From a virus: DNA of 22,827 nt. Below are positions 2,878 to 19,258 of this stretch, piece by piece (the stretch's first letter is position 1; the number at the start of each line of letters is the position of its first letter). The notes under the pieces were generated by a model. The model made no database searches. It worked only from the letters and a program-made list of their open reading frames with translations, and was not told the origin of the DNA. The stretch lies in the IMG/VR virus record IMGVR_UViG_3300027805_001064, positions 1 through 22,827 of that record, one strand, 5' to 3'. The position numbers and the translations under genes are program-made.

Positions 2878-3072
2878 TTAACCCTTTAAGGATTTTCTCC
2901 TGATAGACATCATAACAGGACTTTTTTTTCTACGAGGTAAATGAACACCTGGTTCACCGCCTTTACCACCTGTACCAGCAATAGCACCAGAGCTAACTAC
3001 GTTTGTGGGACCAGCTGACATAGCACCGCCAGCCATTCCATCTTCGTCAATAAATTTTTTGAATGTTTTCAT
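2878..3072 (-). CDS. Small Gly-rich protein with capsid-targeting-like N-terminus, 64 aa
   Basis: The first ten residues are MKTFKKFIDE. They match the T4 internal-protein leader as I recall it (MKTYQEFIAE) at M1, K2, T3, F7, I8 and E10, with an aromatic at position 4. In T4 this leader directs proteins into the prohead and is cut after E10 by the gp21 protease. The remainder is Gly/Ala-rich (DGMAGGAMSAGPTNVVSSG) and ends in a basic tail (RRKKSP, RRKSLKG). The gene starts in a 4-nt overlap with the 128-aa gene and sits just before the spanins. An internal head protein or small structural peptide is likely; the exact function is unknown. Confidence 0.7.
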   Translation of the reverse strand: MKTFKKFIDEDGMAGGAMSAGPTNVVSSGAIAGTGGKGGEPGVHLPRRKKSPVMMSIRRKSLKG

Positions 3073-3455
3073 ATTTTTAGTAGTATCTCTGCGATATTAA
3101 TTTCAACCGGTATTTTAGTCGAGTAAATGTTTTTTCCTTTAATACCTTTTACAACTTCAGGCATTATATTTAAATAACATAAAAATGTTTTCAATATATC
3201 ATAATCTCGTTCATCTATTCTATAAAATAATATTCTCGCTGTAGGCTCTGGACCAAAAACATTATTTAATAGAATGATGTGATTTAAAATTAACCGTTCC
3301 TTTAATGACTTTGAAACTTTATATCTACGGAACAATCGTTTTAAATATTTTGTTCTTTTAATATCTCCTTCAAATTCTGACATTAAACAATTAGGTGTAG
3401 TATAACACTTCATCGCATACATCATAAAGTTGTCATCATTTAAATCATCAAACAT
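3069..3455 (-). CDS. Conserved T4-like phage protein, 128 aa, function unknown
   Basis: This is a largely helical protein with the pattern DLNDDNFMMYAMKCY, then a basic stretch (IKRTKYLKRLFRRYK) and ILNHIILLNNVFGPE, ending in MPEVV and a hydrophobic C-terminus. The 'LNHIxxLxNVFG' pattern is one I associate with a conserved small protein of marine and enteric T4-like phages (possibly the family called DUF7207), with no known role. It is the first gene after the hairpin terminator at 3473-3496 and has only a weak ribosome-binding site, so it may be read from transcripts that pass the terminator. No catalytic motif is visible. Confidence 0.72.
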   Translation of the reverse strand: MFDDLNDDNFMMYAMKCYTTPNCLMSEFEGDIKRTKYLKRLFRRYKVSKSLKERLILNHIILLNNVFGPEPTARILFYRIDERDYDILKTFLCYLNIMPEVVKGIKGKNIYSTKIPVEINIAEILLKI

Positions 3456-3472
3456 TATTATCTTTCAGATGA

Positions 3473-3496
3473 AAATGGGAGCCGTAGCTCCCATTT
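3473..3496 (-). terminator. Intrinsic-type terminator with cUACGg tetraloop
   Basis: A perfect 10-bp inverted repeat (AAATGGGAGC / GCTCCCATTT) encloses a 4-nt loop. Read on the transcribed minus strand, the loop and closing pair are C-UACG-G, an exceptionally stable UNCG tetraloop. It is followed on that strand by the short T tract TTTTC. It lies 24 nt after the stop of the 210-aa virion gene and 18 nt before the next start. It should end or attenuate the late transcript of the virion protein and insulate or stabilise its 3' end. The T tract is short, so read-through into the lysis genes is likely. Confidence 0.85.
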
Positions 3497-3519
3497 CTAA
3501 TAAAATCAAAAAACTTTAA

Positions 3520-4152
3520 TTACAGACCACCGTAAATAGCGTTGGCGCTAGTATTGGCAGATGCTGTATTGGATGCTACTGGATTTGCCAAAGCAACCAA
3601 AGTTTCTTTTAGGAAACGAACTGTTCCATCGTTATTAATTTTACGTTGAATTAAGTTCCATCCTGCATTCACGTTACCAAGTTGTGTATTAGCAACTGTA
3701 GAACCAGCCGCACCTGTGGTGCCTCGGGTGTTGGCCATACGACCAGAAGTTACTAAAATGGTGTCTGAGAATACGTTTGCTGTTGTATTGGCAGCGTAAG
3801 TGACCTCTGCGTAGGGAATTTCATCACAGAAATAAAGCAAAGTGCCGTTAGGAATAGTAGTTGTAACAGCGTCTGTTAATACAACGTTAGCTGAATTGAC
3901 AGCTAAAACAGTATTATTCCCTTTAAAATAAGCACTCTCTCCACTTACTGCAATACCTACGCCAGAATCATATACGAATTGGCCAACAACAATTCCTGTT
4001 GTACTAGCAACTCGAATAACTGTATTTCCGCCTAAAACTCCTCCGGCCGTACCAGTATTTGCTACTGTTGTGGTTGCGACTGGACGCACTTGCCGAAGCA
4101 ACGGCATATGTGGTTTATCGCTTACTGAATCTGTATTTCCCCATGCTGGCAT
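3520..4152 (-). CDS. Virion structural protein (possible head decoration protein), 210 aa
   Basis: The protein opens MPAWGNTDSVSDKP and is rich in Ala, Thr, Val, Asn and Gly with no helix-forming charged stretches, so it should be mostly beta-structured. Its segments resemble a family I recall from marine T4-like phage virions: an N-terminal 'PxWGNTD...KP' and a C-terminal 'GWNLIQRKINNDGTVRFLKETLVAL' region (about residues 164-188). A strong AAGGAG ribosome-binding site lies 7 nt before the ATG, a late-promoter-like GATAAATA lies about 32 nt upstream, and a stable terminator follows. It is thus a one-gene late transcription unit, as expected for an abundant structural protein. Decoration or capsid accessory is my inference. 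Confidence 0.72.
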   Translation of the reverse strand: MPAWGNTDSVSDKPHMPLLRQVRPVATTTVANTGTAGGVLGGNTVIRVASTTGIVVGQFVYDSGVGIAVSGESAYFKGNNTVLAVNSANVVLTDAVTTTIPNGTLLYFCDEIPYAEVTYAANTTANVFSDTILVTSGRMANTRGTTGAAGSTVANTQLGNVNAGWNLIQRKINNDGTVRFLKETLVALANPVASNTASANTSANAIYGGL

Positions 4153-4165
4153 TTTTTTCTCCTTT

Positions 4166-4191
4166 TAACCTCGGGTTATGGTGTATTTATC
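4166..4191 (-). promoter_or_regulatory. T4-type late promoter with 5'-end hairpin
   Basis: On the minus strand GATAAATA (4191-4184) matches the T4 late box TATAAATA at seven of eight positions. Using T4 spacing, transcription would begin near 4178. There a 5-bp hairpin (TAACC-CGA-GGTTA, 4178-4166) would form the very end of the mRNA, just before the AAGGAG ribosome-binding site. The element occupies the gap between the 529-aa gene and the virion gene it would drive. Confidence 0.65.
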
Positions 4192-4196
4192 TTTAT

Positions 4197-5786
4197 TTAA
4201 GCTGGTGATTTCTTTGGATTACCTTTGTCAAAGGTATCTGGACGATCCGGCCGATTCTTCATGGTCGGATCAATTTCTACCATATCTCTTGGTTGTCCTG
4301 TTAGAGTTTTACCTCCAGCCATCACAGCACGAGCTTCTGGTTTGTTCTCGCCAATGTTATCCTTCTTATCTGTCATATCTAACTTTGGCTTTTTTCCGTA
4401 AGATTGAACGGACTTATCTTCTTTTTCCCAGTCGTTCATATCTTCTTTCATATTCTTACGTTTATATATGGATTTAATAATTCTTGCGGATTTAGTTGCT
4501 TCACGCCTTTTCATCATATCTGTGTCATTTGTGGTATTAGCACCATCAAAAGGCATTTGTGTGGCGGCTTGTGTATCTTGAAAAGCATCTTCTTTCATTT
4601 TTAGTTCATCTTTTCTTTTACCAAAAGTATGATGTACCAAAGTATCTAATTTTTTGTGAAATTGAGTTTCTTTTGTTTTGCTGATACCAGCAGCTTCAGA
4701 TGTTGGCTTATAACCAGCTAAACGGTCTAAAGCCCTATTCCAACTTTTACTATGAGTTTTGATTTTTTTATTGAAGTCTTTTCTAGTCATACCTGGCTTT
4801 TTCTCAGGTACAACTGGTTGTTTTTTCAACCAAGAAAATACTGTAGACTTTTTGAGTTCGTCAATTTGCTCAACTTCTTCATCAATACCACTTCCATGAA
4901 ATTTATGAGCAATATGCATGGCCATCTTTTCATGTTTCTCTTTTGGTACATTGGTACTTCTTAAATATCTTAAAGCTGACTGATGGACTTTATTATCATC
5001 TCCAGCATCACTATTATAAGGAGCGTGTTCAGAGTTTGACCAATTATTGAAATGGTGTTCAACTTCTGAACTGGAAACTTCATTGATAGTTTCTTCTTTG
5101 TTCAGATGCTTCTCTAAACGGTCAATAGAAGCAGTCATACCAGAACCATCTTTAGATAGATTTTTTTCAATCTCTGCGTGTTTCTTTGCTCTTTCAGCTG
5201 CAGCTGCACGAAACTTATCCAATGCTGTCGGTTTAGAATTATAGGTGCCGCCACGTAAACTTTTTTTAATTTTAGTTGCGCTGTTATCCCATGCTTCATT
5301 TACTTTTTCATTATTACTTGTCATATAGTTTGCAACAGTATCGATATAGTCGGTCGCAAGAGTTACTTTAGATTGAACCCAAGCAGGTACTTGCATATCA
5401 GGTTTCTTAATCACTGGTCGTAACATTTCAACACTTCGTGCAATTTGGTCCAACTGATTGAGTATCATACTACCTTCGTCATCCAATTGTTTACCCATTG
5501 CAATAGCAACATGGTCCTCTTTGACCTCAACTTCTTCTCTTGCAAATCGTTCTATGTGGTCAGCTTTCCATTTTGCATATTCTGATGATTTGGCATGCGC
5601 AATCTTGGTATCTCTTGTGACGAACCTAGGATTGACACCTCTTGAATTAAGATAACGTGCCAATAGTTCTGTTTCGGTTGCTTCAGTTACATTGTATTTG
5701 GTGGCCCATGGATTAGATGGGTCTGTGCCAAATGTAGCATTAGCTACAGGATTTTTCTTAATGATATCTTTCATTTTTTTTACCAT
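4197..5786 (-). CDS. Large modular phage protein with prohead-protease-like sites, 529 aa
   Basis: This is a highly charged, low-hydrophobicity protein with no enzyme motif. Residues about 101-157 contain a helical module with VPAWVQSKVTLATDYID, a pattern I recall from large marine-phage proteins. Around 303-310 is EEVEQIDE, which recurs nearly unchanged in the neighbouring 445-aa protein. It fits the T4 gp21 cleavage rule (I/L-x-E), as does TINE at 233-236. Cleavage would release separate segments. The C-terminus from about 400 is polar, Lys/Asp-rich and probably disordered. The ATG overlaps the upstream stop by 7 nt. I infer an internal head or scaffold-like polyprotein packaged with DNA, but the function is not established. 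Confidence 0.7.
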   Translation of the reverse strand: MVKKMKDIIKKNPVANATFGTDPSNPWATKYNVTEATETELLARYLNSRGVNPRFVTRDTKIAHAKSSEYAKWKADHIERFAREEVEVKEDHVAIAMGKQLDDEGSMILNQLDQIARSVEMLRPVIKKPDMQVPAWVQSKVTLATDYIDTVANYMTSNNEKVNEAWDNSATKIKKSLRGGTYNSKPTALDKFRAAAAERAKKHAEIEKNLSKDGSGMTASIDRLEKHLNKEETINEVSSSEVEHHFNNWSNSEHAPYNSDAGDDNKVHQSALRYLRSTNVPKEKHEKMAMHIAHKFHGSGIDEEVEQIDELKKSTVFSWLKKQPVVPEKKPGMTRKDFNKKIKTHSKSWNRALDRLAGYKPTSEAAGISKTKETQFHKKLDTLVHHTFGKRKDELKMKEDAFQDTQAATQMPFDGANTTNDTDMMKRREATKSARIIKSIYKRKNMKEDMNDWEKEDKSVQSYGKKPKLDMTDKKDNIGENKPEARAVMAGGKTLTGQPRDMVEIDPTMKNRPDRPDTFDKGNPKKSPA

Positions 5787-7117
5787 TTCTTGCTCTCAGA
5801 AGTTCCGCCATCTTTACCTAGCATCATTTCAGATTTAACTTTAGTTTTATCTTGTACTTTTTTAAAAGCTTGTTGAGCTAAATTTCTAGCACGGCTCATT
5901 GGAGAATGTTTTGCACCAGACTTATCGGTTACTGTTGCTGCCATCTTTTTCCATCCAGAAGTACCAGCGATAGTTGCTTCTTTAACTTCGTGTGACTTTC
6001 TTGCTGGTGTTTCATCTGGTTGAATAATTTCAGGAGTTGCATCCTTTGGAATTGTTTCACCTTCTTTATCTAAAGGACGAACTCTTAATTTATAAGATTT
6101 AAAATCATTTGATTTGCCACCAGGCATGCGGCCAGCTAATGTGTCTGTTGTTATAGGAGCAGAATCTACAGCAGCTTCTTTCATGGCTTGTTTTGTTGCT
6201 GTAGCATACATTACTGATTTAGCATCTTTACCATAACGTGATTTGAATCCAGCTAAACCCTTTTTCATACCCTTAACAATACGTTCACGTTCAGTTTTGT
6301 CAGCAGAGGTCATTGTACGCTCTTCTAATTCAACTTCTTCTTTATAACCTTTGGCTGCAGGTACTCCTTTAGATGGTACACAATTAGGTACTTCACGACC
6401 ATTTTTCTTTTTCATACCAACTTGTGTGTAATTATCCCAGCAAGGATCTTTTTCGTCAATCTGTTCAATTTCTTCATTGCGTGCTTTTGCTAGATTTTTT
6501 GGATCAGAAATAGAATCTTTTGAACCAGACTTTACTTCAGCTGGTGTTAATGGTGCATCACCACGAGCCTTACGAACAAAAGCAGGAACATCAGAGCGCT
6601 TCATGCCTTCAATTAATTTCTTTGCAAAGTACATATCTTCTTTGACCTTCTTTTTACCACGGAGAATGGCAAAATCATGTGCGTCAATTTTGTTATTTTT
6701 ATTTGCATCAATCTTATGTTGGTCACCTTTTAATTCCTCAGCCACTTTTTTCTTATCATTTAAGGCTTTCTTCATTGGCTCTTTTTTGTCGCCATCTTTA
6801 TCAAAGTCTAAGTAATCTGGCTTGGCAGCTTCGTCATACTTACCTTTTGTTTTCTCATGTTCTTCTTTGTCTTTCTGCATCAAGTCTTTTGTTTTAGGAC
6901 CTTTGAGGTCATCAACAGAAGATTTGCTTTGGTCTTGTTTAGCCTTTGCAGAATTGCCATAACTACGGCCATATACTCTCATGCCTGTAGAAGTAGGTTC
7001 TTTGATTGGGGCGCCAGCTTCGTTCAGTAATACATCTTCTTGTTCTACAGGTTGTTCACCTAGAACTTTGTTTACTGCATCGATCATTGACTGACTTACT
7101 TTATTTTTTGCGAACAT
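5780..7117 (-). CDS. Large modular phage protein with EF-hand-like loops, 445 aa
   Basis: The start at 7117 is preferred over an in-frame GTG at 7144 because CGGAGAAAAAAATG gives a strong ribosome-binding site. The protein is very charged and modular. Near residues 104-115 it has DFDKDGDKKEPM and at 137-148 DANKNNKIDAHD; the latter matches a canonical EF-hand/dockerin calcium loop. EEIEQIDE (215-222) precedes a Cys-containing module (about 225-247, DPCWDNYTQVGMKKKNG), and a second module (about 262-313) contains RYGKDAKSVMYATATKQ. Possible prohead-protease sites (I/L-x-E) are LLNE (30-33) and QIDE (219-222). It lies between the DUF6321-like gene and the 529-aa gene, and shares the EQIDE separator with the latter. 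An internal head protein is the best guess. Confidence 0.72.
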   Translation of the reverse strand: MFAKNKVSQSMIDAVNKVLGEQPVEQEDVLLNEAGAPIKEPTSTGMRVYGRSYGNSAKAKQDQSKSSVDDLKGPKTKDLMQKDKEEHEKTKGKYDEAAKPDYLDFDKDGDKKEPMKKALNDKKKVAEELKGDQHKIDANKNNKIDAHDFAILRGKKKVKEDMYFAKKLIEGMKRSDVPAFVRKARGDAPLTPAEVKSGSKDSISDPKNLAKARNEEIEQIDEKDPCWDNYTQVGMKKKNGREVPNCVPSKGVPAAKGYKEEVELEERTMTSADKTERERIVKGMKKGLAGFKSRYGKDAKSVMYATATKQAMKEAAVDSAPITTDTLAGRMPGGKSNDFKSYKLRVRPLDKEGETIPKDATPEIIQPDETPARKSHEVKEATIAGTSGWKKMAATVTDKSGAKHSPMSRARNLAQQAFKKVQDKTKVKSEMMLGKDGGTSESKKW

Positions 7118-7131
7118 TTTTTTCTCCGTTA

Positions 7132-7455
7132 TTAGCAGTTCCACTTGCGTAATGCTTTGTTAATTCTTGAATCTGGATCATTGGCTGTTTTAGCTGATGT
7201 CAATCGTTTCTTCATTCCACCCATACGAGCACAGAATGATTTACGGCGATTTGCTGCCTTTGAACCTGGTTTTAATTTTGATGGCTTTGTAGTAACAGCC
7301 ATACTTAGTTTTGAACCTGGATTTTCTCTACGATATGATGCAATACCTTTACGATTTAAACCACCTTCTGGATCTTTACCTGCGGCACGTTGCCATGCAG
7401 GAGATTTTTCATCTAAAGATTCTACTTCTTCTAAGAATTGTTTAAATTTTAACAT
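7132..7455 (-). CDS. Small basic phage protein (DUF6321-like) with capsid-targeting-like tag, 107 aa
   Basis: The N-terminus MLKFKQFLEE has F4, F7, L8 and E10, the same pattern as the other tagged proteins here, and a second possible prohead-protease site SLDE follows at 13-16. The rest is strongly basic: KSPAWQRAAGKDPEGG, ENPGSKL, KPSKLKPGSKAANRRKS, and a C-terminal RINKALRKWNC. I recall the SPAWQR...GGLNRKG pattern as the DUF6321 family of marine phages. The charge suggests DNA binding inside the head. The ATG lies inside the end of the upstream nucleotidyltransferase gene (14-nt overlap) and the next gene starts 14 nt after its stop. Confidence 0.78.
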   Translation of the reverse strand: MLKFKQFLEEVESLDEKSPAWQRAAGKDPEGGLNRKGIASYRRENPGSKLSMAVTTKPSKLKPGSKAANRRKSFCARMGGMKKRLTSAKTANDPDSRINKALRKWNC

Positions 7456-9334
7456 TTCGTTTTCTTTTTAGAATGTCGTTAGCACGAACTTTGTTATCAT
7501 TAGGTACAACTAAAGGTTCTTTATTTGTAGCACCATTAAGAGTTCCACCAACACCCATATCAAAGGCGCCTGGATCATCAATTGCTTCTTTCTTAACTAG
7601 CTTTCTAAACTTCTTAAAATCTTTACTGTCGTATTCACTACTTAGTGGGTTTACTGACCCACCAGACGGCATTGCTATAGAAGAAGGAGTGGCGTTACTA
7701 TACTCTTGGTTCTCACTATATGTTTGATTACCAAGTCCAGCACCACCAGTTAATCCTGAGCCATTTGTACGTGTGTTCCACTCGGAACCAAGGCCACTAG
7801 CATTACCAATTCTACCTGCACTTAAAGACTTATCTCCAAACTTTAATCTCTTTACTTTTTCTTTGTCTTTTTGGAAGTTTGGCTCTTTGGCCGTTGGGAG
7901 GACCTGGACTGTGGGGCCGCCTTCTTCGGAGTAGGTTTTGAAGATGTAGTCGGAGTTGTACTTAACGTCTCCGTCACGGACGTCATCTGGCCGGTTGAGC
8001 TTTCTTTGGAGCTGTTGTCCTGGGGAGTTGTTGTCGAGCAAGGGTCTACGGTTGGTTTTACTTTTAACCAGTCTATTAGTGCTTTGAGCATTTTTATTTT
8101 CCTTAAATAATAAATTAATATTTAACTTACTTCTTCGATTCAACCAATCTTCGGCTGTATCTCCTACATCAGAATCCAAAAACTCATTAGTGGATTCATA
8201 TACCTCGTATATATCTTCTTCTTTAGTATCTAAATTTCCTGTATTATCAAAAGGAATAAAATTACTAAAGGCTTCCATGAAATATTTAGTATTTTCTTGC
8301 GATTTAATCCACTTATCTTGCCTTACTGATTCAACCATCATTCTGGACAATAGTGAGTTTCTTTCTTTACTTGTTTCATCTGTCGTGTTAACAAATATCA
8401 TCATTGTATCATATCCCATATCTTCAAGTTCTTCTTTGATATAGGCAATTCTATCTCTATCATCGGCCGGACCATTAATAATCAATGGACCACGGTTACG
8501 AATGGCTTCTCTACGAGGATCATTGGTCTTTTCTGATAGTTTTTGTTTGTCGGCCAAGTAATCTTGTGCTTGAACCAAATTCAATTCAACAGACCTTTGT
8601 TCAGCAATGGCTTCACGAATAATAATGTCTTTACCAGAACCTGGACCACCAGTCACAAAAATTGCTTTGAATAGACCACGAGTATATGATTCATGTAAAC
8701 CCATACCTTTACGAGTATCATGCATTAACTCTTTTGCATGAGTATCTGAAACATGAGAAGGAACACCCTTTCTGAACTCACCAAAGTTCTTGCTCTTTGC
8801 GTGTTCTCTCATTTTACTGGCAGACATACCTTCAGTACCTTCGGCATCTGGATCACGATGACCAGCGGAATGTACAGTAATCTTTTTGAAATGATATTTT
8901 CCGTGGCCAGCCTCTACACCATTGTATTTGTGTAATAGGTGATGCATTTCTTTCACACGGTCGGAACCAACAACAACATGAAGGTGAGTTACGCCACTTT
9001 TGTGTGCATCTACTGCATGATGTAATATTGTTGGTTTCTCTTTCGATGCGGCCACAAAATTTGTGCCGCCAGATTTTGTTGCCTCTGAAATTGGGCCAGC
9101 TGTATAACGTTTTAAGTGTTTAATTTTTTGGTCAGCACTTAATGGATTCTTTTTACTATCTTGTGTATGAGAAACAACGATAGAATGAGTTGCATTATTT
9201 TTCTGTGCAATCTCTTTGACTTTACTAATCAATTTTAGATGACCTGTGGTAGGAGGACTCATTCTACCAAAGGTGATAACATGGTGTTTTTCACCTTGTT
9301 GTTCTTCTTTGATTGTATCTAAAAATGATTTCAT
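7442..9334 (-). CDS. Bifunctional nucleotidylyltransferase / P-loop kinase-like protein, 630 aa
   Basis: Residues about 17-180 form a cytidylyltransferase-like (NMNAT/NadM-type) nucleotidyltransferase. GRMSPPTTGH carries the HxGH-type signature with Thr29 in place of the first His, and SASKMRE (171-177) matches the second signature. Residues about 222-400 form a P-loop domain with Walker A GGPGSGKD (229-236). The pairing recalls NadR, which joins NMN adenylyltransferase with ribosylnicotinamide kinase, but the substrates here are unproven. The C-terminal 200 residues are polar, Gly/Asn-rich and of unknown fold. The N-terminus MKSFLDTIKE has F4, I8 and E10 like the tagged proteins around it. 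The ATGA overlap with the ligase-like gene suggests coupled synthesis. An alternate-frame ORF with odd base composition lies inside it at 7852-8091. Confidence 0.85.
   Translation of the reverse strand: MKSFLDTIKEEQQGEKHHVITFGRMSPPTTGHLKLISKVKEIAQKNNATHSIVVSHTQDSKKNPLSADQKIKHLKRYTAGPISEATKSGGTNFVAASKEKPTILHHAVDAHKSGVTHLHVVVGSDRVKEMHHLLHKYNGVEAGHGKYHFKKITVHSAGHRDPDAEGTEGMSASKMREHAKSKNFGEFRKGVPSHVSDTHAKELMHDTRKGMGLHESYTRGLFKAIFVTGGPGSGKDIIIREAIAEQRSVELNLVQAQDYLADKQKLSEKTNDPRREAIRNRGPLIINGPADDRDRIAYIKEELEDMGYDTMMIFVNTTDETSKERNSLLSRMMVESVRQDKWIKSQENTKYFMEAFSNFIPFDNTGNLDTKEEDIYEVYESTNEFLDSDVGDTAEDWLNRRSKLNINLLFKENKNAQSTNRLVKSKTNRRPLLDNNSPGQQLQRKLNRPDDVRDGDVKYNSDYIFKTYSEEGGPTVQVLPTAKEPNFQKDKEKVKRLKFGDKSLSAGRIGNASGLGSEWNTRTNGSGLTGGAGLGNQTYSENQEYSNATPSSIAMPSGGSVNPLSSEYDSKDFKKFRKLVKKEAIDDPGAFDMGVGGTLNGATNKEPLVVPNDNKVRANDILKRKRNVKI
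7852..8091 (-). CDS. Candidate overprinted gene inside the nucleotidyltransferase gene, 79 aa
   Basis: The ORF begins MLKALIDWLKVKP and becomes Ser/Thr/Pro-rich, ending in a basic tail (SKKTKKK). It has an ATG with AAGGA eight nt upstream, a better site than several accepted genes here. Its reading frame places the wobble base of the host gene at its own second codon position. In this stretch the host gene uses NNC codons almost exclusively, which yields Ser, Thr, Pro and Ala codons in the embedded frame. GC is about 52% over 7861-8040 by hand count against about 27-30% in the 60-nt flanks. C-rich wobble also removes stops in this frame, so openness alone is weak evidence. It could equally be a by-product of a recombined GC-rich patch. 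An amphipathic N-terminal helix and basic tail are the only visible features. Confidence 0.4.
   Translation of the reverse strand: MLKALIDWLKVKPTVDPCSTTTPQDNSSKESSTGQMTSVTETLSTTPTTSSKPTPKKAAPQSRSSQRPKSQTSKKTKKK
8100..8104 (-). promoter_or_regulatory. Ribosome-binding site of the embedded ORF
   Basis: AAGGA on the minus strand lies eight nt before the ATG at 8091-8089. It falls within the coding sequence of the nucleotidyltransferase/kinase gene (codons for KEN), so it may be chance. It is the main independent reason to consider that the embedded 79-codon ORF is translated. Confidence 0.4.
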
Positions 9335-10503
9335 TTTCTTACTTTAAGTAAATTAGCTTTTGCAAATTCTGCTCTATTAACTAATTTGGTTGGTTCACCA
9401 CCATGATTAACAACAAAGCCTTCTGGTCCTGTTGGTTTACCATCAATGTGGTGTTCTAAACCGCCAGTATTCTTTTCTAAATTTTTCACTAACACATTCT
9501 TTGCTTGTTGTAGATGGTGATGCATATTTAGAAGGTTATTATAATGCTCTGTATTACCTTCAATATGTTGCACATGAGATTTTGCTTCTGTTTCTTTTCT
9601 TGCTTGAGCAGCTGGTGTTCTTAATTTGGATGCAGCCTTAATAAATTTATTTTCTATATGTTTCTGTAGACCTTTAGCTGTAGGTTTTTCACCAGTTCTA
9701 ACAGTTTGATTGATATATGTTTCTAAATGACCACCAGAACCACGATGCGGTTCGGTAGCACTATACATCTTTTTACCTGATTCATCATGAATCTTTTGTG
9801 CAGATGCAATATGTTTTCTAAACTGCTCTTGGTCTTTTTCTGGATAGTTTACTTTTGAGGCATCATGTTCAGCTGACTTGTGCCAAACATCTTCGTGCTG
9901 TTTGAAATTGTGAACATCAGGACTAGCATCCGCTTTCATTGAACCAATGTCTTTACCATGATACTGCTGATGAACTACTACACCAAATTTGGCTTTACGA
10001 ATTTTATCACCTTCTGCACCTTTGGCAGAATACGTGATTGTATTGGGTGTAAATGATACTCCATGTTTAGTTTCTTTTTTATCTTCACCACTAAACATTA
10101 CATCACCTTGATACACACCTTTTTTTGGTGCCACTTTAGGCAAATGCTCTAATGCGTGTTTTAATTTCTCAACCAAACCTGGTGCATGGCCATGGTTCTT
10201 CTCAATATCTTTATTTGTGTAATTGATTTTTGGATTTTTATTGAAAGCTGATTTTGATGCCACAAAGAATTTTTTAGTTTCTGGATGATGACCAAAAACC
10301 AATGATGGAGAACCATCATATTTCATTGTTAATGCGGTGCTGTGACCGCCAGATTTGATGTGTTCGTGTGCTTGTTGCAATGCGCCAACGGCATGTTGAA
10401 ATCCTTCGGATCCATTTTGTAATGGCCTATCCTCAGCATGGGTTATATGCTTGAGTTTACCACCCTCATCTTCTTCTTTGAGAAACGTTAAAAACGAATA
10501 CAT
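9331..10503 (-). CDS. DNA/RNA ligase-fold nucleotidyltransferase-like protein (DUF6267-like), 390 aa
   Basis: The start at 10503 is chosen over an in-frame ATG at 10530 because AAGGA lies 6 nt before it. MKYDGSPS (60-67) is a ligase motif I (KxDG, candidate nucleotidylated Lys61). VYQGDVMFS (130-138) resembles motif III, KFGVVVH (172-178) motif IIIa, EGFVV (361-365) motif IV and TKLV (372-375) motif V. The core is interrupted by a long His/Lys-rich helical insert (about 195-345). I recall this family as DUF6267 in marine phages. It could seal nucleic acid or transfer a nucleotide to another target. The N-terminus MYSFLTFLKE has F4, F7, L8 and E10, the capsid-targeting-like tag. It is the first gene after a perfect late promoter. 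Confidence 0.8.
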   Translation of the reverse strand: MYSFLTFLKEEDEGGKLKHITHAEDRPLQNGSEGFQHAVGALQQAHEHIKSGGHSTALTMKYDGSPSLVFGHHPETKKFFVASKSAFNKNPKINYTNKDIEKNHGHAPGLVEKLKHALEHLPKVAPKKGVYQGDVMFSGEDKKETKHGVSFTPNTITYSAKGAEGDKIRKAKFGVVVHQQYHGKDIGSMKADASPDVHNFKQHEDVWHKSAEHDASKVNYPEKDQEQFRKHIASAQKIHDESGKKMYSATEPHRGSGGHLETYINQTVRTGEKPTAKGLQKHIENKFIKAASKLRTPAAQARKETEAKSHVQHIEGNTEHYNNLLNMHHHLQQAKNVLVKNLEKNTGGLEHHIDGKPTGPEGFVVNHGGEPTKLVNRAEFAKANLLKVRK

Positions 10504-10625
10504 TAATTTCCTTACAGATTTGCAACACACTTTGGTTGCCGGTCGCTTATTTATACAACATTTGGAGTTTTATAACCAAACCATAGAAAGATTCGGTTCG
10601 ATACATAGTCATCAAATTGTTGGGT
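10504..10625 (-). other. Longest non-coding gap; end of glycan island and start of late unit
   Basis: About 120 bases separate the SDR gene from the ligase-like gene. It holds the late promoter at 10555-10548 and the AAGGA site at about 10509-10513. I see no strong hairpin with a T tract to end the glycan transcript; a weak TTTGG/CCAAA repeat is not convincing. No tRNA can be folded from it. Confidence 0.6.
10548..10555 (-). promoter_or_regulatory. T4-type late promoter, perfect TATAAATA box
   Basis: The minus strand reads TATAAATA at 10555-10548 in a non-coding gap upstream of the ligase-like gene. With T4 geometry, transcription would start near 10542, leaving about 39 nt of leader. That leader contains a small hairpin (GCAAC/GTTGC, 10539-10522) followed by the AAGGA ribosome-binding site. 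It should drive the block from 10503 down to 4197 late in infection. Confidence 0.78.
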
Positions 10626-11447
10626 TTAAATCAACGTATCCAACGTCTGGAAAAGGTTATACTTTGGTGTGTAGCCCATTTCTTTGATTTTTGAGATATC
10701 TAAAACCATGTTTTTTGTTTGAACTGTTTTATGAAATTGAGGTATGTCCATGGTACCAAATTTTGATGTAGAATTGACCTTACTTTTCACATAATCCAAA
10801 GCTTGTTTAATGAATACCATTTCACCATTACCTATGTTATAGATTTCATTCATATTTCCCTTTTCTATAACAAGATTAATGGCTTGCACCACATCATCAA
10901 CATGAATGTAATCACGGTAAAAAATACCGCCTTCATAAAGGTTAATATTTTCATTATTTACCACTTGATTAATCATATACTGTAAAGCGTTCTTTTTCTT
11001 AGATACCTTACCATCACTTTTACCTAACACATTGGCCAACCTAAGAATACGGTATTTTATATTGAATGTTTCACAATATGAAATGAGTAGTTGTTCAGCG
11101 GTACGTTTGGTGATTGAGTAAAACCCTCTAGGATTACAGTATGATTCTTCTCTGGCTGGTAGTTGAACATCACCATAAACGAACCAGGAACTAATAAAAT
11201 TAAAAGTAACGTTCTTATCCTTACAGGACTCTAATGTGCGCACCAAAGTCGTTAGGTTCGTTTCTATGTCAATGTATGGATTAGTGTGAACATTGTAGTT
11301 GTCCACGGTAGAAATAAAGTATACCACTTCACTATCATCTTTTACATCATAATCATACTTGGCATTGATTACCACATTATCTGTGAGTTCACGATAACGG
11401 CTACCAACAAAGCCGTTACCGCCTAGAACATTAATCAAGCGTTCCAT
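10626..11447 (-). CDS. NAD(P)-dependent sugar epimerase/reductase (extended SDR), 273 aa
   Basis: The nucleotide-binding motif GGNGFVGS (9-16) and catalytic Tyr110/Lys114 (FYSITK) with an upstream SS pair (86-87) mark an extended short-chain dehydrogenase of nucleotide-sugar metabolism. At 273 residues it is shorter than typical UDP-glucose 4-epimerases and close to CDP-paratose/abequose synthases. In Salmonella O-antigen clusters those follow the 3-dehydrase gene, as this gene does here (13-nt overlap with the RfbH-like gene). The likely reaction is reduction of the C4 keto group of a 3,6-dideoxy-4-ketohexose nucleotide, the last step of the sugar's synthesis. Stereochemistry and nucleotide cannot be read from the sequence; a 4-epimerase remains possible. 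Confidence 0.82.
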   Translation of the reverse strand: MERLINVLGGNGFVGSRYRELTDNVVINAKYDYDVKDDSEVVYFISTVDNYNVHTNPYIDIETNLTTLVRTLESCKDKNVTFNFISSWFVYGDVQLPAREESYCNPRGFYSITKRTAEQLLISYCETFNIKYRILRLANVLGKSDGKVSKKKNALQYMINQVVNNENINLYEGGIFYRDYIHVDDVVQAINLVIEKGNMNEIYNIGNGEMVFIKQALDYVKSKVNSTSKFGTMDIPQFHKTVQTKNMVLDISKIKEMGYTPKYNLFQTLDTLI

Positions 11448-12715
11448 TTTTTACATACATCTTCAATATATGCCAAAACTTTTTCGTTATAGAGTGGTGA
11501 ACAACCTAAGAAGAACACATTACTGAGAGCCAAGTTTGAATTAGGATAATCTTTATAATTATCTAAGTGTTTATACCCAGGATGTAACAGAATATTACCA
11601 CTAAAATAGTTTCTTGTTTGAATTTTATTAGATTCAAAATGTTGTACCAAGAATTCTTTTACATCTTGTGATTCACAATAGATTGGCACACCAAACCAAG
11701 AAGGATCGGCCTTAGATAGAGGATTGATAACACGAATCTCTTTGATGTTATCTTCTAAGAATTTTTGAATTGTTTTCTTATACTCACGGCGTTTCTCATC
11801 AATATATTCAAACTTCTTTAATTGCTCTAAACCAATTGCGCCTTGCAAGTCTAAAGGCTTGAGATTGTAACCCATTGTCGTAAACAGATATTTGTGGTCA
11901 ATCACACCATCATAATTATCTAACCAATTATCAAATCGTTTACCACAGGTGCCACATTCAAGCATATTGTTTGATCCGACACAATAACAATCACGACCCC
12001 ACCACGAAACACTTCTTACTAGATTGATAAGATTGTCATCATTACAACAAACCATGCCACCTTCACCAGTTGAGATGTGATGAGCAGGATAGAATGATGT
12101 TGACCAGCAGTAGTAATATTCTGTAATCAGTTTGCCATTATAATTTGTTCCCAATGAATCACAGTTATCACCAATCAAAAGAATGCCGTGTTTGGTGCAA
12201 ATGTCTTGTAGAATATCCATGTCAGGAGGATTACCAAGGACAGGTGATACAAAAATTGCTTTGGTTCTTGGTGTAATCTTTTCTACAAGCTTGACCAAAT
12301 CAAAATTGAGAGTTTCTAATTCAATATCAATGAATATAGGCTTTAGATTATTTTGAACTAATGGTGCAATCGTTGTTGGGAAACCTACTGGCGAAACGAT
12401 GACTTCATCACCATCTTGCCAGTTCATATGCTTCTTTAGTGCAGTAATCATTACTAGATTGGCAGATGAACCAGAATTCACCATGTGTGCATGTTTAACA
12501 CCAAAGCGTTTACTGAAATGAATTTGAAATTGTGCTACCTTTTCACCTGATGTAATCCATTTACCATTGACAAGTGTATCAATGGCCGCATACATTTCTT
12601 TTTCGTCCCATAACTGGCCAGAATACTGTACGAAATCACCATGTTTATAGTTGTCATAATTTTTGGCATAACTTGGGCGTTCTTTTGATAAAGTTTCAAT
12701 CATTTGATTAATCAT
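11435..12715 (-). CDS. rfbH: RfbH/DdhC-type NDP-4-keto-6-deoxyhexose 3-dehydrase, 426 aa
   Basis: The DegT/DnrJ/EryC1/StrS fold is clear (NSGSSANL, GDNCDSLGT, GEGG). The site that holds the PLP lysine in aminotransferases reads SFYPAHH, with His212 in that position. This is the hallmark of E1/RfbH dehydrases, which use PMP to remove the C3 hydroxyl. C185, C243 and C245 reproduce the C-x57-C-x1-C spacing I recall for the [2Fe-2S] site of E1, followed by C254 and C257 before GKRF. ColD-type dehydrases lack this cluster, so a CDP-sugar-type RfbH partnered with an E3-like reductase is favoured. No reductase is encoded here, so the host may supply it. AAGG lies 8 nt before the ATG. It sits between the C-methyltransferase and SDR genes. 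Confidence 0.9.
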   Translation of the reverse strand: MINQMIETLSKERPSYAKNYDNYKHGDFVQYSGQLWDEKEMYAAIDTLVNGKWITSGEKVAQFQIHFSKRFGVKHAHMVNSGSSANLVMITALKKHMNWQDGDEVIVSPVGFPTTIAPLVQNNLKPIFIDIELETLNFDLVKLVEKITPRTKAIFVSPVLGNPPDMDILQDICTKHGILLIGDNCDSLGTNYNGKLITEYYYCWSTSFYPAHHISTGEGGMVCCNDDNLINLVRSVSWWGRDCYCVGSNNMLECGTCGKRFDNWLDNYDGVIDHKYLFTTMGYNLKPLDLQGAIGLEQLKKFEYIDEKRREYKKTIQKFLEDNIKEIRVINPLSKADPSWFGVPIYCESQDVKEFLVQHFESNKIQTRNYFSGNILLHPGYKHLDNYKDYPNSNLALSNVFFLGCSPLYNEKVLAYIEDVCKKWNA

Positions 12716-12716
12716 T

Positions 12717-13901
12717 TTACAACCTTTTCATATCTAAAAATACATCATTTAAATTATTTCTCTGCGCAGTAATTCTTTCTTTAATCTCTTTAAAGAAGTT
12801 CCAAGCCAAAGGTACAAACAATATTCTATCATGTTCCTCAAAGGATTTCAATACTTCCGATCCAACTATACCAATAGAAGAACCTGGTGTATAGAGGCCT
12901 TGCTTCATTGGATTGTCATCTATAATCATATCAAATGGTACTTTGGCAAAGTTTAGGAATGTATTGCCTTTGGCTGGCGCTCCGTAACCCACGATTTTGT
13001 AACCATTTGTTCGGTATTCTTCCACGACCTGTTTAAATTTTTCAACTAGTTCAACACAGTTTTTAGAATATTGTGTGTATGTTTCTTTACTATACAGACC
13101 TGCATTTGTTTCAATATCAATTAGATTCTTAATATTTGCTGGTGATGAAGTGTCTGCACTAATAACAAAGATATAACTTGTTCCATGAATTGGTGTTTTA
13201 ATAACATTAATCAAATTTAAACCTGCTCTATTACACAGAAACATCATTGATTTGATATTGTAGAACGATATGTGTTCATGGTAAATAGTATCGAATTCAT
13301 CATTCAATATCATATCTGCCTGTGAGGTTTGAATAAAAATTAGGCCATCAATATTTAAATTCTTCTTACAGTTCTTTAAGAGTTCTAATGGATTTGGATT
13401 GTGTGCAAAAGCATTTTGAATTGTTATGATATCTACTGGCTGAGAATACTTATCATCAAAGTAACCACAAGTCACATTATGATTCTTTGAAGATAATTCA
13501 AAGAGATTTTCTGCCGGATCAACTCCATAAGTTTCTAATCCACGTTTTTTAAATTTATCTAACTGCGAACCATCATTACAACCAATATCTAAGACCGACT
13601 GTGGGTATACATTGAATTGTTCACAAACAAAATCAGCATACCAGTCCATATAATCAACATATGTTTTGGTCGTTCCACTTACATACAGATAGTTCTTATA
13701 GATTAAATCAGGATTAACAGCATGAGTTAGTTGAACATGATAACATTGTTCACACCGATTAATTTTTAATGGGTATGATGCCTCTGGTTCATCTTTACTT
13801 TTTTTATAAGAGTTGGCCAAAGGCTGGTCATTTAAATCTAACACAGGTATTAAATCACCACTATCACATGCTAAACATTTTTTAATTTCAGTTAAATCCA
13901 T
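12717..13901 (-). CDS. TylC3/NovU-type sugar C-methyltransferase, 394 aa
   Basis: It has the three-part layout of deoxysugar C-methyltransferases. The N-terminal zinc site has CxxC pairs at Cys9/12 and Cys50/53. The SAM-binding domain has DIGCNDGS (105-112) and the active-site motif YHEH (207-210). The C-terminal domain contains GYGAPAKGNT (305-314). Enzymes of this family methylate the carbon next to the keto group of NDP-4-keto-deoxysugars, often C3. Next to an RfbH 3-dehydrase this suggests a 3-C-methyl-3,6-dideoxyhexose, though some members act on other positions. It overlaps the upstream gene by 1 nt (TAATG) with GAGG as ribosome-binding site, and its stop is 1 nt from the dehydrase start. 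Confidence 0.88.
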   Translation of the reverse strand: MDLTEIKKCLACDSGDLIPVLDLNDQPLANSYKKSKDEPEASYPLKINRCEQCYHVQLTHAVNPDLIYKNYLYVSGTTKTYVDYMDWYADFVCEQFNVYPQSVLDIGCNDGSQLDKFKKRGLETYGVDPAENLFELSSKNHNVTCGYFDDKYSQPVDIITIQNAFAHNPNPLELLKNCKKNLNIDGLIFIQTSQADMILNDEFDTIYHEHISFYNIKSMMFLCNRAGLNLINVIKTPIHGTSYIFVISADTSSPANIKNLIDIETNAGLYSKETYTQYSKNCVELVEKFKQVVEEYRTNGYKIVGYGAPAKGNTFLNFAKVPFDMIIDDNPMKQGLYTPGSSIGIVGSEVLKSFEEHDRILFVPLAWNFFKEIKERITAQRNNLNDVFLDMKRL

Positions 13902-14629
13902 TATCTACCCTCATAAAAATTCTTATAATTATGAACCATGTCGTAATGCTTCTTCATTTCATTTAAATCTAAATTTGGATTCTCTGGCCAAATATTGTGC
14001 AATCTTGGATTGACATTATATTTAGCACCAGCAAGGAAGAAGTATACTTGTAGGAAACAATCGTTCCATCCTAACTGTGGTTGATTCTGATGTAGTCTAT
14101 CAAAATCTCTATCCAAAAACTCTACAAATTTATAAAATGTTTGAATGAAGGTACTTGTTTTCATAATCGTGCCAGCACCAGCACCATATTGTGTTCTATC
14201 AGGTTTAACACCAGAGATTGTTTCACAGATATCTAAAACTTCTTGATTAATGTAATTGCCATCGGTGATATTGTAAGATGCAATATCCCAATTAGGATCA
14301 AATTGAATTTCATTCAAACAGATTACATCATCTTCTGATATAATAAAATGTGTGGTGCCCATACAGATGGCAGCCAACATCATTCGTTTCATAAAGTTAT
14401 ATACTCTAAGTTTATCGAAACCCCAATGTGGTGAAGGATAACCCAAATCAAAGTCTGCATGTAGATAGTTCACATTATACTTTTTGCATACATCGTATTG
14501 AGAACCACCAGCGGCATCACAGGCAACAAAGTATGGTGCATTTGGATGATATTTACGGAATGAAGCAATCGAGGCTTCTAGCCCCGATTTGTTATCTTTA
14601 TTCCAATGATAGATGCCTAGTGAAGCCAT
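13901..14629 (-). CDS. GT-A-like glycosyltransferase, 242 aa
   Basis: The start at 14629 (MASLGIYHWN) is preferred over 14650 because GGAG lies 8 nt upstream, inside the end of the dehydratase gene. ASIASFRKYHPNAPYFVACDAAGG (about 19-42) gives a nucleotide-sugar-binding beta-alpha unit of a GT-A fold. SEDDV (about 98-102) supplies a DxD-like acidic motif, and WND (about 189) is typical of the acceptor side. No close family is recognised. It is embedded among deoxysugar genes, so it may transfer the sugar made here. Confidence 0.65.
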   Translation of the reverse strand: MASLGIYHWNKDNKSGLEASIASFRKYHPNAPYFVACDAAGGSQYDVCKKYNVNYLHADFDLGYPSPHWGFDKLRVYNFMKRMMLAAICMGTTHFIISEDDVICLNEIQFDPNWDIASYNITDGNYINQEVLDICETISGVKPDRTQYGAGAGTIMKTSTFIQTFYKFVEFLDRDFDRLHQNQPQLGWNDCFLQVYFFLAGAKYNVNPRLHNIWPENPNLDLNEMKKHYDMVHNYKNFYEGR

Positions 14630-15654
14630 CTTTTGTTCTCCAATGTCCACAAAGTCATCTCTTTAATTCGTTCACTCAATTTAATCTTTGGTTCCCAACC
14701 CAATGATTTCAATAAACCACCATCTAAGGCATATCGTAAATCATGGCCAGGTCTGCTACCATGAAAATCAACCATTTCATAATTAAGTTCTTTGCCTTGT
14801 GCTTCAGCAATCATCTTAGCCAAAGTTAAGTTATCAATTTCTTCCGTGCCAACAAGATTGAATTTAGGACAATGAGCCCAACCATAATCACCAGTATGTT
14901 TATAATTCTTTGGTAGATTGTTGAGGATAAACATTAGGCCTTCGGCCACATCTTTGGCATGAATATACATGCGAGTGCCGGCTTCTGTACAATCAGCATT
15001 AGCATGAATATAAACCTTTTCACCATCACGAGCCCTTTTAATACACATTGGAATAAATTTCTCTGGATGTTGGCGTTCACCAAACACATTCATTGTGTGT
15101 GTTACCACAATAGGCATCTTATAAGTGTTTTCATAGGCAACACAAAATTCTTCTGCGGCAGCCTTACTTGCTGAATATGGATTTGTTGAATTGTATCGGT
15201 CGTATTCTTTATAAGCAACACCGGGAGGTGCAACACCAAAGATTTCATCTGTTGAGAAATATACAAATCGTTCCAGATTAGGCAAATGTTTACGAGCATA
15301 CTCAAGCATATTGACTGTGCCAACAGTATTATCTTGTACGAATTCCATTGGATATTGAATACTGCGGTCAACGTGACTGCCTGCAGCTAAGTGTAATACG
15401 ATATCGATGTCACCAATATCGTTCACAATCATTTCGTTAAGTTCAGCTTTCAAATCGTGAAACACAATCCGCAATCGTTGAGATACAATCTTAGGATCAT
15501 GGTCTTGTAGCATATCATGTAATCGATTTAAGTTACCTGAAATATCTAAACGATCCAAACAAGTAATTTTATAATCAGTTTCTCGTAACATCTTGTCAAT
15601 AACATGATGAGCAATAAACCCAGCACCACCTGTAATCAATACATTCTTACTCAT
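14617..15654 (-). CDS. NDP-glucose 4,6-dehydratase (RmlB/RfbG-like), 345 aa
   Basis: This is an extended SDR with GGAGFI (9-14), the catalytic triplet Thr135-Asp136-Glu137 in STDEIFG, and Tyr160/Lys164 in YSASK. The TDE set is diagnostic of nucleotide-sugar 4,6-dehydratases, which convert NDP-glucose to NDP-4-keto-6-deoxyglucose with bound NAD. Length is standard (about 340-360). It provides the first committed step for the sugar then handled by the 3-dehydrase, C-methyltransferase and SDR downstream. Whether the nucleotide is dTDP or CDP cannot be read; the RfbH partner favours CDP, while the sequence feel is closer to RmlB. It overlaps the genes on both sides (4 and 13 nt). Confidence 0.88.
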   Translation of the reverse strand: MSKNVLITGGAGFIAHHVIDKMLRETDYKITCLDRLDISGNLNRLHDMLQDHDPKIVSQRLRIVFHDLKAELNEMIVNDIGDIDIVLHLAAGSHVDRSIQYPMEFVQDNTVGTVNMLEYARKHLPNLERFVYFSTDEIFGVAPPGVAYKEYDRYNSTNPYSASKAAAEEFCVAYENTYKMPIVVTHTMNVFGERQHPEKFIPMCIKRARDGEKVYIHANADCTEAGTRMYIHAKDVAEGLMFILNNLPKNYKHTGDYGWAHCPKFNLVGTEEIDNLTLAKMIAEAQGKELNYEMVDFHGSRPGHDLRYALDGGLLKSLGWEPKIKLSERIKEMTLWTLENKRWLH

Positions 15655-16331
15655 AATTTAACTCCGTAATAATCAGCAACACCGTGTTTGCCATGAAATC
15701 CTAAACTTTTGCCTAACCATACAGAACTATAATTGTGTTCTATACTAAATCGATTTGCAATATAGAGTGGAGCAAATTTGATGTCATATTCTTTTTCCAA
15801 TTTCTCTCTATGCACTTTACAGATAATATTATCTTCAGGAATAAACTTTTCACCAGATTCGGTTATTACATAATAAAAAGAATCATTCATATAATCTTGG
15901 TAATCATTTGTAGAATTCTTTATACCAATGGAAATGAATGCGTCATATAACTTACGAGAACGCAAACAGAATCCGCCATTACCAACAGTACCGTCATTCC
16001 AAGAAGCACCAATGTAATCATATTCTAAGAATTCATCTGTCCATGCTTCACGATTTACTGCAAAGCCATCTGGATGAATAATTAAGTTATGTTCTTCTAT
16101 ACAAATCTCAGGACACAACTTTAATGTGATGTGGCTGTAATCTTCATTGTAGACTTTAATAGGATCAATTTTAATCCATGTTACAGGTATATCTATTGTG
16201 TCAGGAAAATCAATATCAGAAAACCAGTATACTCTTGTTATCTTATCACCAAGAGTTTCAATGGTTTTCTTTAATGCCGTAATTGTAGGTGTATAATGTA
16301 ATGTATCTATACAAGTGATGCTTATTGCCAT
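15651..16331 (-). CDS. DUF5672-type putative glycosyltransferase, 226 aa
   Basis: The central pattern NLIIHPDGFAVNREAWTDEF, then YDYIGASW and VGNGGFCLRSRKL, is what I recall of the DUF5672 family found in surface-glycan loci. PEDNIIC further on resembles the acidic motif seen in these proteins. The fold is probably GT-A with Asp in 'PDGF' near the nucleotide-sugar site. It overlaps the dehydratase gene by 4 nt and the GT9-like gene by 10 nt. Sugar donor and acceptor are unknown. Confidence 0.72.
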   Translation of the reverse strand: MAISITCIDTLHYTPTITALKKTIETLGDKITRVYWFSDIDFPDTIDIPVTWIKIDPIKVYNEDYSHITLKLCPEICIEEHNLIIHPDGFAVNREAWTDEFLEYDYIGASWNDGTVGNGGFCLRSRKLYDAFISIGIKNSTNDYQDYMNDSFYYVITESGEKFIPEDNIICKVHREKLEKEYDIKFAPLYIANRFSIEHNYSSVWLGKSLGFHGKHGVADYYGVKL

Positions 16332-17041
16332 GTTGTTCTTTCACAATCTAACCAATAGGTCGACATCTTACCTTTACCTTGCAAAAGATAAAACGGCAAG
16401 GTATGAATCAGACCTCTACTAGAACCATAGTATAACAATTCTTTAGGTCCTTTGTCAAGCGACCATGCAAAATGGCTTGAACCTGTATCACCGCCCACAA
16501 AGATTTCAGTTGTGGTAATATGGTAATAATTCTGTACAAAGTTGGTAGAATACCGCCAGCCTTCAAACGGACATGATTCAGTAGGTTCACCTTTCTTACA
16601 GATTATCTTTTCGTAATCTTTATATTCTTCGGTGCTAAATTTGTCAATCAAATATGGTAAAAGATTTATTGGCCAATTTCTCCACAAATTATATGGCGCA
16701 TCAAAGAGTGGGAAAATCGTAATCTTTTTCTCCATTGGTGCATCATTTGGAATCTTTACCAAATCACTTGAGATATCTCTAAAATCCCACACATTCACTC
16801 TACGCCAAGGTAAAGTTTCTGTACCTTCTTCTTTAGAGAAATAGTTAGTCATCTTCAACATTATCTCATAGAATGTTTGACAATGTATATCAGGACTAAT
16901 ATTACCTGGTTTTAAATGAAATTGAATTGTTGGATTGTTATTAGTTTTTCTTAAATGTTCTACGACATTGGCAACACCAATCATATCACCATTACGAATA
17001 GTACCAAAAGTTCCTGGTTCAATATTAATAATTGTATTCAT
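16322..17041 (-). CDS. GT9-like (heptosyltransferase-fold) glycosyltransferase, 239 aa
   Basis: The C-terminal half has GGDTGSSHFAWSLDKGPKE, matching the donor-site 'DxGxxH' region of GT9/GT-B heptosyltransferase-like proteins, followed by a Tyr/Gly-rich loop (YYGSSRG). The N-terminal GTFGTIRNGDMIGVANVVEHL resembles their first Rossmann loop. At 239 residues it is shorter than bacterial heptosyltransferases (about 320-350). The donor is unknown. It belongs to the same overlapping gene string as the other transferases. Confidence 0.6.
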   Translation of the reverse strand: MNTIINIEPGTFGTIRNGDMIGVANVVEHLRKTNNNPTIQFHLKPGNISPDIHCQTFYEIMLKMTNYFSKEEGTETLPWRRVNVWDFRDISSDLVKIPNDAPMEKKITIFPLFDAPYNLWRNWPINLLPYLIDKFSTEEYKDYEKIICKKGEPTESCPFEGWRYSTNFVQNYYHITTTEIFVGGDTGSSHFAWSLDKGPKELLYYGSSRGLIHTLPFYLLQGKGKMSTYWLDCERTTWQ

Positions 17042-17717
17042 TTATCACCGTTCCATCTTGTTGTAGTGAAGCAAAATGGTGTGGAGAACCAGAAGGTAAC
17101 TCCAACATTTCATCATAAGAAGAATAACCATGAACTTCATCCATTCTATTTTTATCACGCACGGAATCAAACCATGCTCTCTCTACTGGTCCTTCACACC
17201 GCCAGATTTCACTCATTGAGAATGTATCTTTAACAAATTGAATGTCAGCAAAGAAACATAATGTGGCCAAATCCCAAGGACTCTTATATGTAGCCAACTT
17301 TGTATTCAATGATTCAAACTTCTGAATTAGTTTTGGATAATCCAAATTAGGATGCTGGTCGTAGCAGAGTTTTAATACATTCTTAAAACCATATCTACTC
17401 AATACATTTAAACCATTGTGTATGGCCGTCATTTCTGCAACACCGTGATTTGGTCTATTTGGCACACCATCTATCTGCCAACGATTATCTGAATCATAAA
17501 TGAATGAATGGCAATAACGTTGTGTTTCTTCATCTAAGGTTGAATGAGAAGAAAGGCACACATAGTAACCAGTTTCTTTTAAGTATTTGACCAATGTTTT
17601 GGCCATGTGTCGTTTGTGTTGTACAATAGAATCACTACCCGTGTTGAAATAATCAGGATCATTTCCGCCAGTATAAGCAGTAATAAGAATTGCTGTATCT
17701 TTAGATACTAAATTCAT
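17025..17717 (-). CDS. Putative glycan-modifying protein of unknown family, 230 aa
   Basis: The N-terminus (AILITAYTGG) and 'TGYYVCLSSHS' form alternating strands and helices like a GT-A Rossmann half. NHGVAEMTAIHNGLN and LKLCYDQHPNLDYP follow, with CYDQH where a DxD motif might lie. No family is recognised and the acidic motif is not clear, so the glycosyltransferase idea rests mostly on position: it overlaps glycan genes on both sides (17 and 4 nt). Confidence 0.6.
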   Translation of the reverse strand: MNLVSKDTAILITAYTGGNDPDYFNTGSDSIVQHKRHMAKTLVKYLKETGYYVCLSSHSTLDEETQRYCHSFIYDSDNRWQIDGVPNRPNHGVAEMTAIHNGLNVLSRYGFKNVLKLCYDQHPNLDYPKLIQKFESLNTKLATYKSPWDLATLCFFADIQFVKDTFSMSEIWRCEGPVERAWFDSVRDKNRMDEVHGYSSYDEMLELPSGSPHHFASLQQDGTVINEYNY

Positions 17718-19256: not shown

Positions 19257-19258
19257 AA

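Follow-up and report, generated by a model that had tools for sequence, protein, structure and literature searches.

A ten-residue N-terminal tag, very likely a capsid-targeting and cleavage signal of the T4 type, on unrelated proteins of an environmental phage operon

Organization of the tagged operon

The DNA analyzed, hereafter the window, is a fragment, 22,827 bases taken from a virus record, with genes on the minus strand. The features considered in this work, all on that strand, are the following:

10548..10555, minus: T4-type late promoter TATAAATA, with 44 nt separating it from the ATG of the DUF6267 gene, the first to be tagged
9331..10503, minus: DUF6267 protein, 390 aa, predicted cargo with an RNA-ligase-like fold (Pfam PF19782, E 5e-99)
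10474..10503, minus: its tag, MYSFLTFLKE, with a predicted gp21 cut after E10 (sequence, alignment, model)
7442..9334, minus: predicted cargo of 630 aa, a CTP_transf_like (HIGH-type) nucleotidyltransferase followed by a P-loop kinase-like domain and a low-complexity tail (PF01467, phrog_3041, phrog_12810)
9305..9334, minus: tag of the 630-aa protein, MKSFLDTIKE (sequence)
8690..8701, minus: residues 212-215 (G-L-H-E) of the 630-aa protein, a predicted internal site of the gp21 type located where its two domains meet
7132..7455, minus: DUF6321 protein, 107 aa, basic, Cys-containing (PF19846, E 3e-19)
7426..7455, minus: tag of the DUF6321 protein, MLKFKQFLEE (sequence)
5780..7117, minus: untagged protein whose CWxxY...VPNCVP module lies between QIDE and VELEE, sequences of the gp21 type [IL]xE
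4197..5786, minus: untagged charged protein, 529 aa, with an EEVEQIDEL-type linker (phrog_32745)
2878..3072, minus: Gly-rich protein with a basic tail, 64 aa (module E)
3043..3072, minus: tag of the 64-aa protein, MKTFKKFIDE (sequence)

The four tagged reading frames of 64, 107, 630 and 390 aa reported in the preliminary description exist as given, and all reside in a single operon. The operon opens with DUF6267 (PF19782). Next come the nucleotidyltransferase/P-loop protein, DUF6321 (PF19846), the pair of untagged charged proteins, a 210-aa protein, DUF7207 (PF23837) and the Gly-rich protein of 64 aa. Parts of this order recur in Pelagibacter phage HTVC008M and in Methylophilales phage Melnitz, which are both assigned to Kyanoviridae. 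Two IMG/VR scans provided 112 related loci. The 390-aa frame starts at an ATG, and has a GTG 9 codons upstream. A second [LI]xE (LDE, residues 14-16) lies ahead of the domain in the DUF6321 protein. The 64-aa protein, for which tblastn gave no match in phages at E 0.01, corresponds to the C-terminus of larger modular proteins found elsewhere. Judging from its sequence, the protein encoded at 5780..7117, whose homologues in relatives carry module B, is possibly a core or multi-cleaved protein.

PADLOC returned no defence match. On one side of the operon the window holds a 523-aa protein (678-2249) looking like a subtilisin-type peptidase, and overlapping reading frames (2246-2876) resembling a pair of i-spanin and o-spanin lipoproteins. 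Upstream of the operon, a large cassette (10626-20790) resembles glycosyltransferases, nucleotide-sugar epimerases and a methyltransferase; at this position gene sets differ in the relatives.

Conservation of the tag

F4, I/L8 and E10 are found in four of four tags, and F7 in three, the 630-aa protein having T7, as had been noticed at first. Also the remark that the tagged proteins are otherwise unrelated holds, bar occasional fusions, when sequences are clustered after removal of the first 14 residues. Within proteins of the window phage and its relatives, the motif F4-[IL]8-E10 occurs at 0.00055 per site. Its presence at 4 of 28 gene starts corresponds to a P of about 2e-9 (2e-7 with three starts per gene allowed), and shuffling of the N-termini predicts 0.035 motif-bearing starts among the 28 genes.

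In relatives the tag keeps its position, and F4 and E10 are fixed. Among 42 DUF6267 homologues picked by homology alone, E10 never varies, while F4, F7 and L8 are each conserved in at least 90%. Every member of the five largest tagged families has F4, though the search expression permitted F, Y or L. In tagged relatives of the 630-aa protein residue 7 is I, L, V, F or Y. The strict form of the tag is carried by 4 of 166 genes in the relative G001 and by 5 of 136 in G003, all within the operon (0.13 and 0.20 expected, respectively), and occurs once in G002. It is missing in the HTVC008M genome, where homologues keep [LI]xE without the spacing. Codon-level selection analysis was uninformative: nonsynonymous change is not reduced in the tag as a whole, only the key positions being fixed.

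Similar N-termini could in principle be hitch-hiking DNA and play no role as protein, either because recombination spread a conserved 5' gene leader or because translation initiation favours such starts, and the neighbouring tagged genes of one contig (L275) do have nearly identical starts. This origin is hardly credible, since the fixed positions vary synonymously (TTT/TTC, GAA/GAG), whereas residues 2, 5, 6 and 9 drift freely, and since few families surface when the motif is rearranged (10, in a complete control scan described below).

Similarity to the leader of T4 internal proteins

The T4 leader to which the tags had been compared, MKTYQEFIAE, is correct, as both IPII and IPIII start with it. 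From mutants of the IPIII leader, residues 4 and 7 direct targeting, and residues 8 and 10 processing (PMC9026906). The gp21 cleavage consensus is L/I-x-E, and in T4 gp22 cleavage takes place between Glu and Ala (PMC9026906). The T4 mutants thus assign a function to positions 4, 7, 8 and 10, and these are the positions conserved among the 42 DUF6267 homologues, as foretold by the T4 analogy. Once injected, the internal proteins of T4 that bear this leader disable host restriction enzymes (PMC12373910).

A scan of T4 with the strict tag gave three matches, IPII, IPIII and gp61.1. IPI, Alt and gp24 are missed, and the scan is therefore specific rather than sensitive. The gp61.1 protein (54 aa, MKTFKEFIKEDMVAGDSGGNPENIS..., NC_000866 18966-19130, minus strand, locus L150) has a perfect tag, resembles the 64-aa protein of the window, and may be an unrecognised T4 internal protein.

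The window proteins resemble IPI-IPIII in the N-terminal 10-mer, the key positions 4, 7, 8 and 10 and the L/I-x-E cleavage sequence (PMC12373910; Mullaney and Black 1996, via PMC9026906), and likewise in that cargo is unrelated beyond the leader and present in small sets per genome. In contrast to the small restriction inhibitors of T4, cargo here consists of conserved enzymes (RNA-ligase-like, nucleotidyltransferase-kinase), encoded in one operon with a conserved late promoter, shuffled modules and a predicted internal cut site. T4 Alt is a head-packaged ADP-ribosyltransferase. As for Alt, the predicted fate of the tagged enzymes is to enter the head, lose the leader to gp21 and reach the host, but they belong to unrelated enzyme families, and the Alt leader, MELITELFDE, falls outside the strict tag. 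Polyvalent proteins (Iyer et al. 2017, cited in PMC9503650 and PMC7824862) are likewise multi-domain, virion-carried enzymes predicted to act early; those are giant fused proteins, whereas the cargo of these T4-like phages is made of short separate proteins with a common leader.

Prohead protease and late promoter

The capsid-loading interpretation predicts a gp21-type protease. No gp21 gene was found in the window, a 22.8-kb fragment, while gp21 (PF03420) is present in each relative searched that holds head genes (G001, G002, G003, G005, Melnitz and HTVC008M), and gp23 likewise. In these relatives gp23, gp22 and gp67-like proteins feature LNE, LSE and IDE/LDE sites where cutting is expected.

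The late promoter sequence TATAAATA is found upstream of 60 of 69 DUF6267 homologues, against 22 of 847 other genes, and lies at -47 in the Melnitz operon. Other copies in G001 and G003 precede gp22, the gp67-like gene and apparent tail-fibre genes, among others. The tagged operon would thus be expressed late, at the time of head assembly, as far as can be judged from these sequences. A second TATAAATA is found at 22420-22427 of the window, 89 nt before a gene for a 416-aa protein (21081-22331); in G001 the sequence also precedes a similar gene (17169-18431).

The tag in other phages

A DNA scan for MK[ST]FxxF[ILM]xE returned at least 120 stretches. The search for the tag profile in other phages, which had been proposed at the outset, was productive, yielding at least 116 distinct starts falling into at least 62 clusters of unrelated families. 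A complete control scan, in which E and the hydrophobic positions were exchanged, returned 67 stretches and 10 clusters. Control motifs fall at gene starts too, and location at gene starts was dropped as evidence for the tag. Among the matches listed, 28 of 62 tagged clusters have A or S at residue 11, which the search left free (P 3e-9), against 2/10 and 4/19 control clusters, a preference resembling the Glu-Ala bond cleaved in T4; in the window family this residue is mostly E, not A/S. Among the matches listed, gp21 is encoded by four of four tagged contigs larger than 100 kb, and tagged proteins carry GNAT, HD hydrolase, HNH and methyltransferase domains. No description of the tag outside T-even phages was found in the literature; preprints and subscription papers lay outside the reach of the search, and the claim of novelty is limited accordingly.

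Virion proteins and podophage homologues

A putative citidylyltransferase, T4-GC190, was detected by mass spectrometry in purified S-SM1 virions by Sullivan et al. 2010 (PMC3037559). A database record equates T4-GC190 with S-SM1_190, which starts with MKKFSAFLNE/AERS (slash, predicted cut) and is the only protein of the S-SM1 genome to have the strict tag at the called ATG start. T4-GC190 is homologous to the 630-aa protein of the window, but lacks the fused kinase domain. A tagged homologue of the 630-aa protein is hence found in virions, which is direct outside support; no remark on the tag was found in PMC3037559.

Podophages of Pelagibacter and Prochlorococcus have DUF6321 too. Three were examined (HTVC035P, P-SCSP1l, Eistla), of which two are assigned to Autographiviridae, the T7-like family; in each, the protein lacks a tag and begins directly with the domain.

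These data bear on the notion that the motif serves some other purpose unrelated to gp21, for example by forming an amphipathic helix that attaches the proteins to another complex of the phage. The DUF6267 model does show a helix at residues 4-12. Yet L/I8 and E10 make up exactly the gp21 motif, A/S is preferred at residue 11 among the matches listed, the podophage DUF6321 proteins are devoid of the tag, and a tagged homologue is reported from virions (PMC3037559), all of which make such a purpose very improbable.

The tag is very likely a capsid-targeting sequence and gp21 site of the type known from T4 IPII/IPIII. Packaging and cutting of the tagged proteins, as predicted, are well supported: each consequence of capsid loading that sequences can test was borne out, namely the conserved positions, gp21 in relatives, the [LI]xE sites, the late promoter and the untagged DUF6321 of podophages, to which the detection of a tagged homologue in virions by others is added.

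Structure and possible function of the cargo

The "ligase-fold" label given at first to the 390-aa protein is plausible, the structures nearest to DUF6267 being RNA ligases. KxDG (K61, D63, G64), D134, E361-G362 and K373 are invariant across 42 sequences. The AlphaFold model has a pLDDT of 89, residues 1-14 scoring below 50, and the tag appears as a low-confidence end on a well-folded body. In VIA-align the top rows are all RNA ligases, the best with Z 8.7 over 186 residues at rmsd 3.9, values of Z near 8 possibly denoting a common arrangement only. Foldseek gave no match at E 0.001, and the sequence profile nothing relevant in PDB. T4 RNA ligases 1 and 2 and the tRNA ligase Trl1 are among the nearest solved structures, and share with DUF6267 the KxDG lysine and downstream E and K motifs, at a sequence identity of about 11%. 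From the model, DUF6267 resembles RNA ligases; ligase activity is putative.

The 630-aa protein had been described as NMNAT/kinase. The nucleotidyltransferase (PF01467), with its conserved catalytic motif GRxxPPTxGH, and the P-loop kinase-like domain stand, while the NadR-type assignment (NMN adenylyltransferase plus ribosylnicotinamide kinase) is not supported by the NadR equivalog model, as TIGR01526 scores 15.5 bits against a cut-off of 341; an analogous activity is conceivable. Past residue 215 the predicted structure is too poor for use. The Melnitz kinase hits AAA_33. It also hits a PHROG annotated as polynucleotide kinase, and a second PHROG so annotated is hit by a tagged HAD-like protein.

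RNA-ligase-like, nucleotidyltransferase and P-loop kinase proteins, with a phosphatase-like protein in relatives, travel together, which makes an early job in the host, either repair or counter-defence, plausible. That the cargo is an injected kit for nucleic-acid repair or nucleotide salvage is a reasonable guess, held with low confidence, and a role in RNA repair in particular is speculative and rather doubtful.

The tag may alternatively be a signal for core targeting and cleavage borne by components of the scaffold core, or by DNA-condensing proteins residing inside the head, rather than by delivered effectors. Several cargo modules, such as the 64-aa protein and DUF6321, are small and either basic or Gly-rich, N-terminal sites of a similar kind occur in the gp22 and gp67-like core proteins of these phages, and the podophage DUF6321 is encoded among capsid and tail genes. 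Against this, the largest tagged families keep the catalytic motifs KxDG (DUF6267) and GRxxPPTxGH (nucleotidyltransferase), GNAT, HD hydrolase, HNH and methyltransferase domains would be odd for a scaffold, and T4 internal proteins with the same leader are injected (PMC12373910). A purely structural role is accordingly considered unlikely, and ejection of the tagged proteins into the host probable, by analogy with T4.

Modularity and internal site

The cargo is modular and the tag portable. Behind the tag, small modules (CWxGY..VPNCVP, DLRKWF, DUF6321, Gly-rich, RHNC) occur in many different orders. Both genes and small modules undergo fusion and splitting, and a piece that stands alone usually bears its own tag. 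E215 of the 630-aa protein is invariant in 30 homologues, and the nucleotidyltransferase-kinase junction is [LI][HN]E in all distinct short linkers but one (VHE). Stand-alone kinases start with MKTFAELQE/GVYDPNIFK or MIPFILKE/GLYDPGIFK, and thus have their own site at the same place as the fused junction. [LI]xE sequences number 68 in linkers vs. 27 in shuffles, and 240 vs. 98 in the kinase module. The linker excess is weakened as proof of polyprotein cutting, as the kinase domain is enriched too; motif counts alone prove little, and only the fixed junction is persuasive.

Proposed mechanism and significance

The operon would be transcribed late from TATAAATA, together with the head genes. F4 and F7 would dock the tagged proteins on the prohead core, to judge from the T4 mutants, and a gp21-type protease would cut after E10, at I/L-x-E. 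An extra cut after E215 may part nucleotidyltransferase from kinase in the 630-aa protein. The freed enzymes would remain amid the packaged DNA (presence in virions is reported for one tagged homologue in PMC3037559), probably to be ejected with it at the next infection. Cargo might then act early in the host, in nucleic-acid or nucleotide repair or in counter-defence, this being the least certain step.

On a broader scale, we slightly favor the idea that MK[ST]FxxF[IL]xE is a portable address by which phages of the T4 superfamily load dozens of unrelated enzymes and modules, further gp21 sites serving as polyprotein junctions, and injected kits being swappable. If so, kits would include RNA-ligase-like, nucleotidyltransferase, kinase, phosphatase-like, HD hydrolase, GNAT, HNH and methyltransferase proteins, and the tag alone would predict injected effectors across a large part of the virosphere. 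The data suggest that, in many phages, DNA enters the cell accompanied by a ready-made set of enzymes. Beyond a few model phages, the identity of the proteins that accompany DNA into the cell is an open question; a tag readable in sequences turns it into a testable list, made of the four cargo proteins described here and at least 62 unrelated tagged families. As leader-bearing internal proteins of T4 disable restriction enzymes (PMC12373910), environmental tagged proteins are prime candidates for counter-defence or takeover. A hypothesis on function is also provided for the Pfam families DUF6267 and DUF6321, present in hundreds of cyanophages.

Other tagged proteins

Further candidate cargo is an ATP-grasp RimK-like protein of Melnitz (MZ577097, 82-1131), with start MTQKFSQFITE. 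A tagged family of 250-400 aa (A3) has a D...SxK pattern merely suggestive of a PD-(D/E)xK nuclease, and no family match supports the assignment. Five tagged reading frames, similar only in the tag, reside in about 3.5 kb of contig L275 (4803-7720, minus strand, reverse-complement positions), possibly an island of injected effectors. Contig L232 (minus strand, reverse-complement position 9346) encodes a tagged HD_4 protein (MKTFKKFISE), a SpoT-like hydrolase and possibly a packaged alarmone hydrolase. Tagged proteins of contigs L184 (2034, minus strand) and L190 (3736, plus strand) feature a YHGT motif near the start, and the latter has a weak match to RNA 2'-phosphotransferase (ADP-ribosyltransferase fold).
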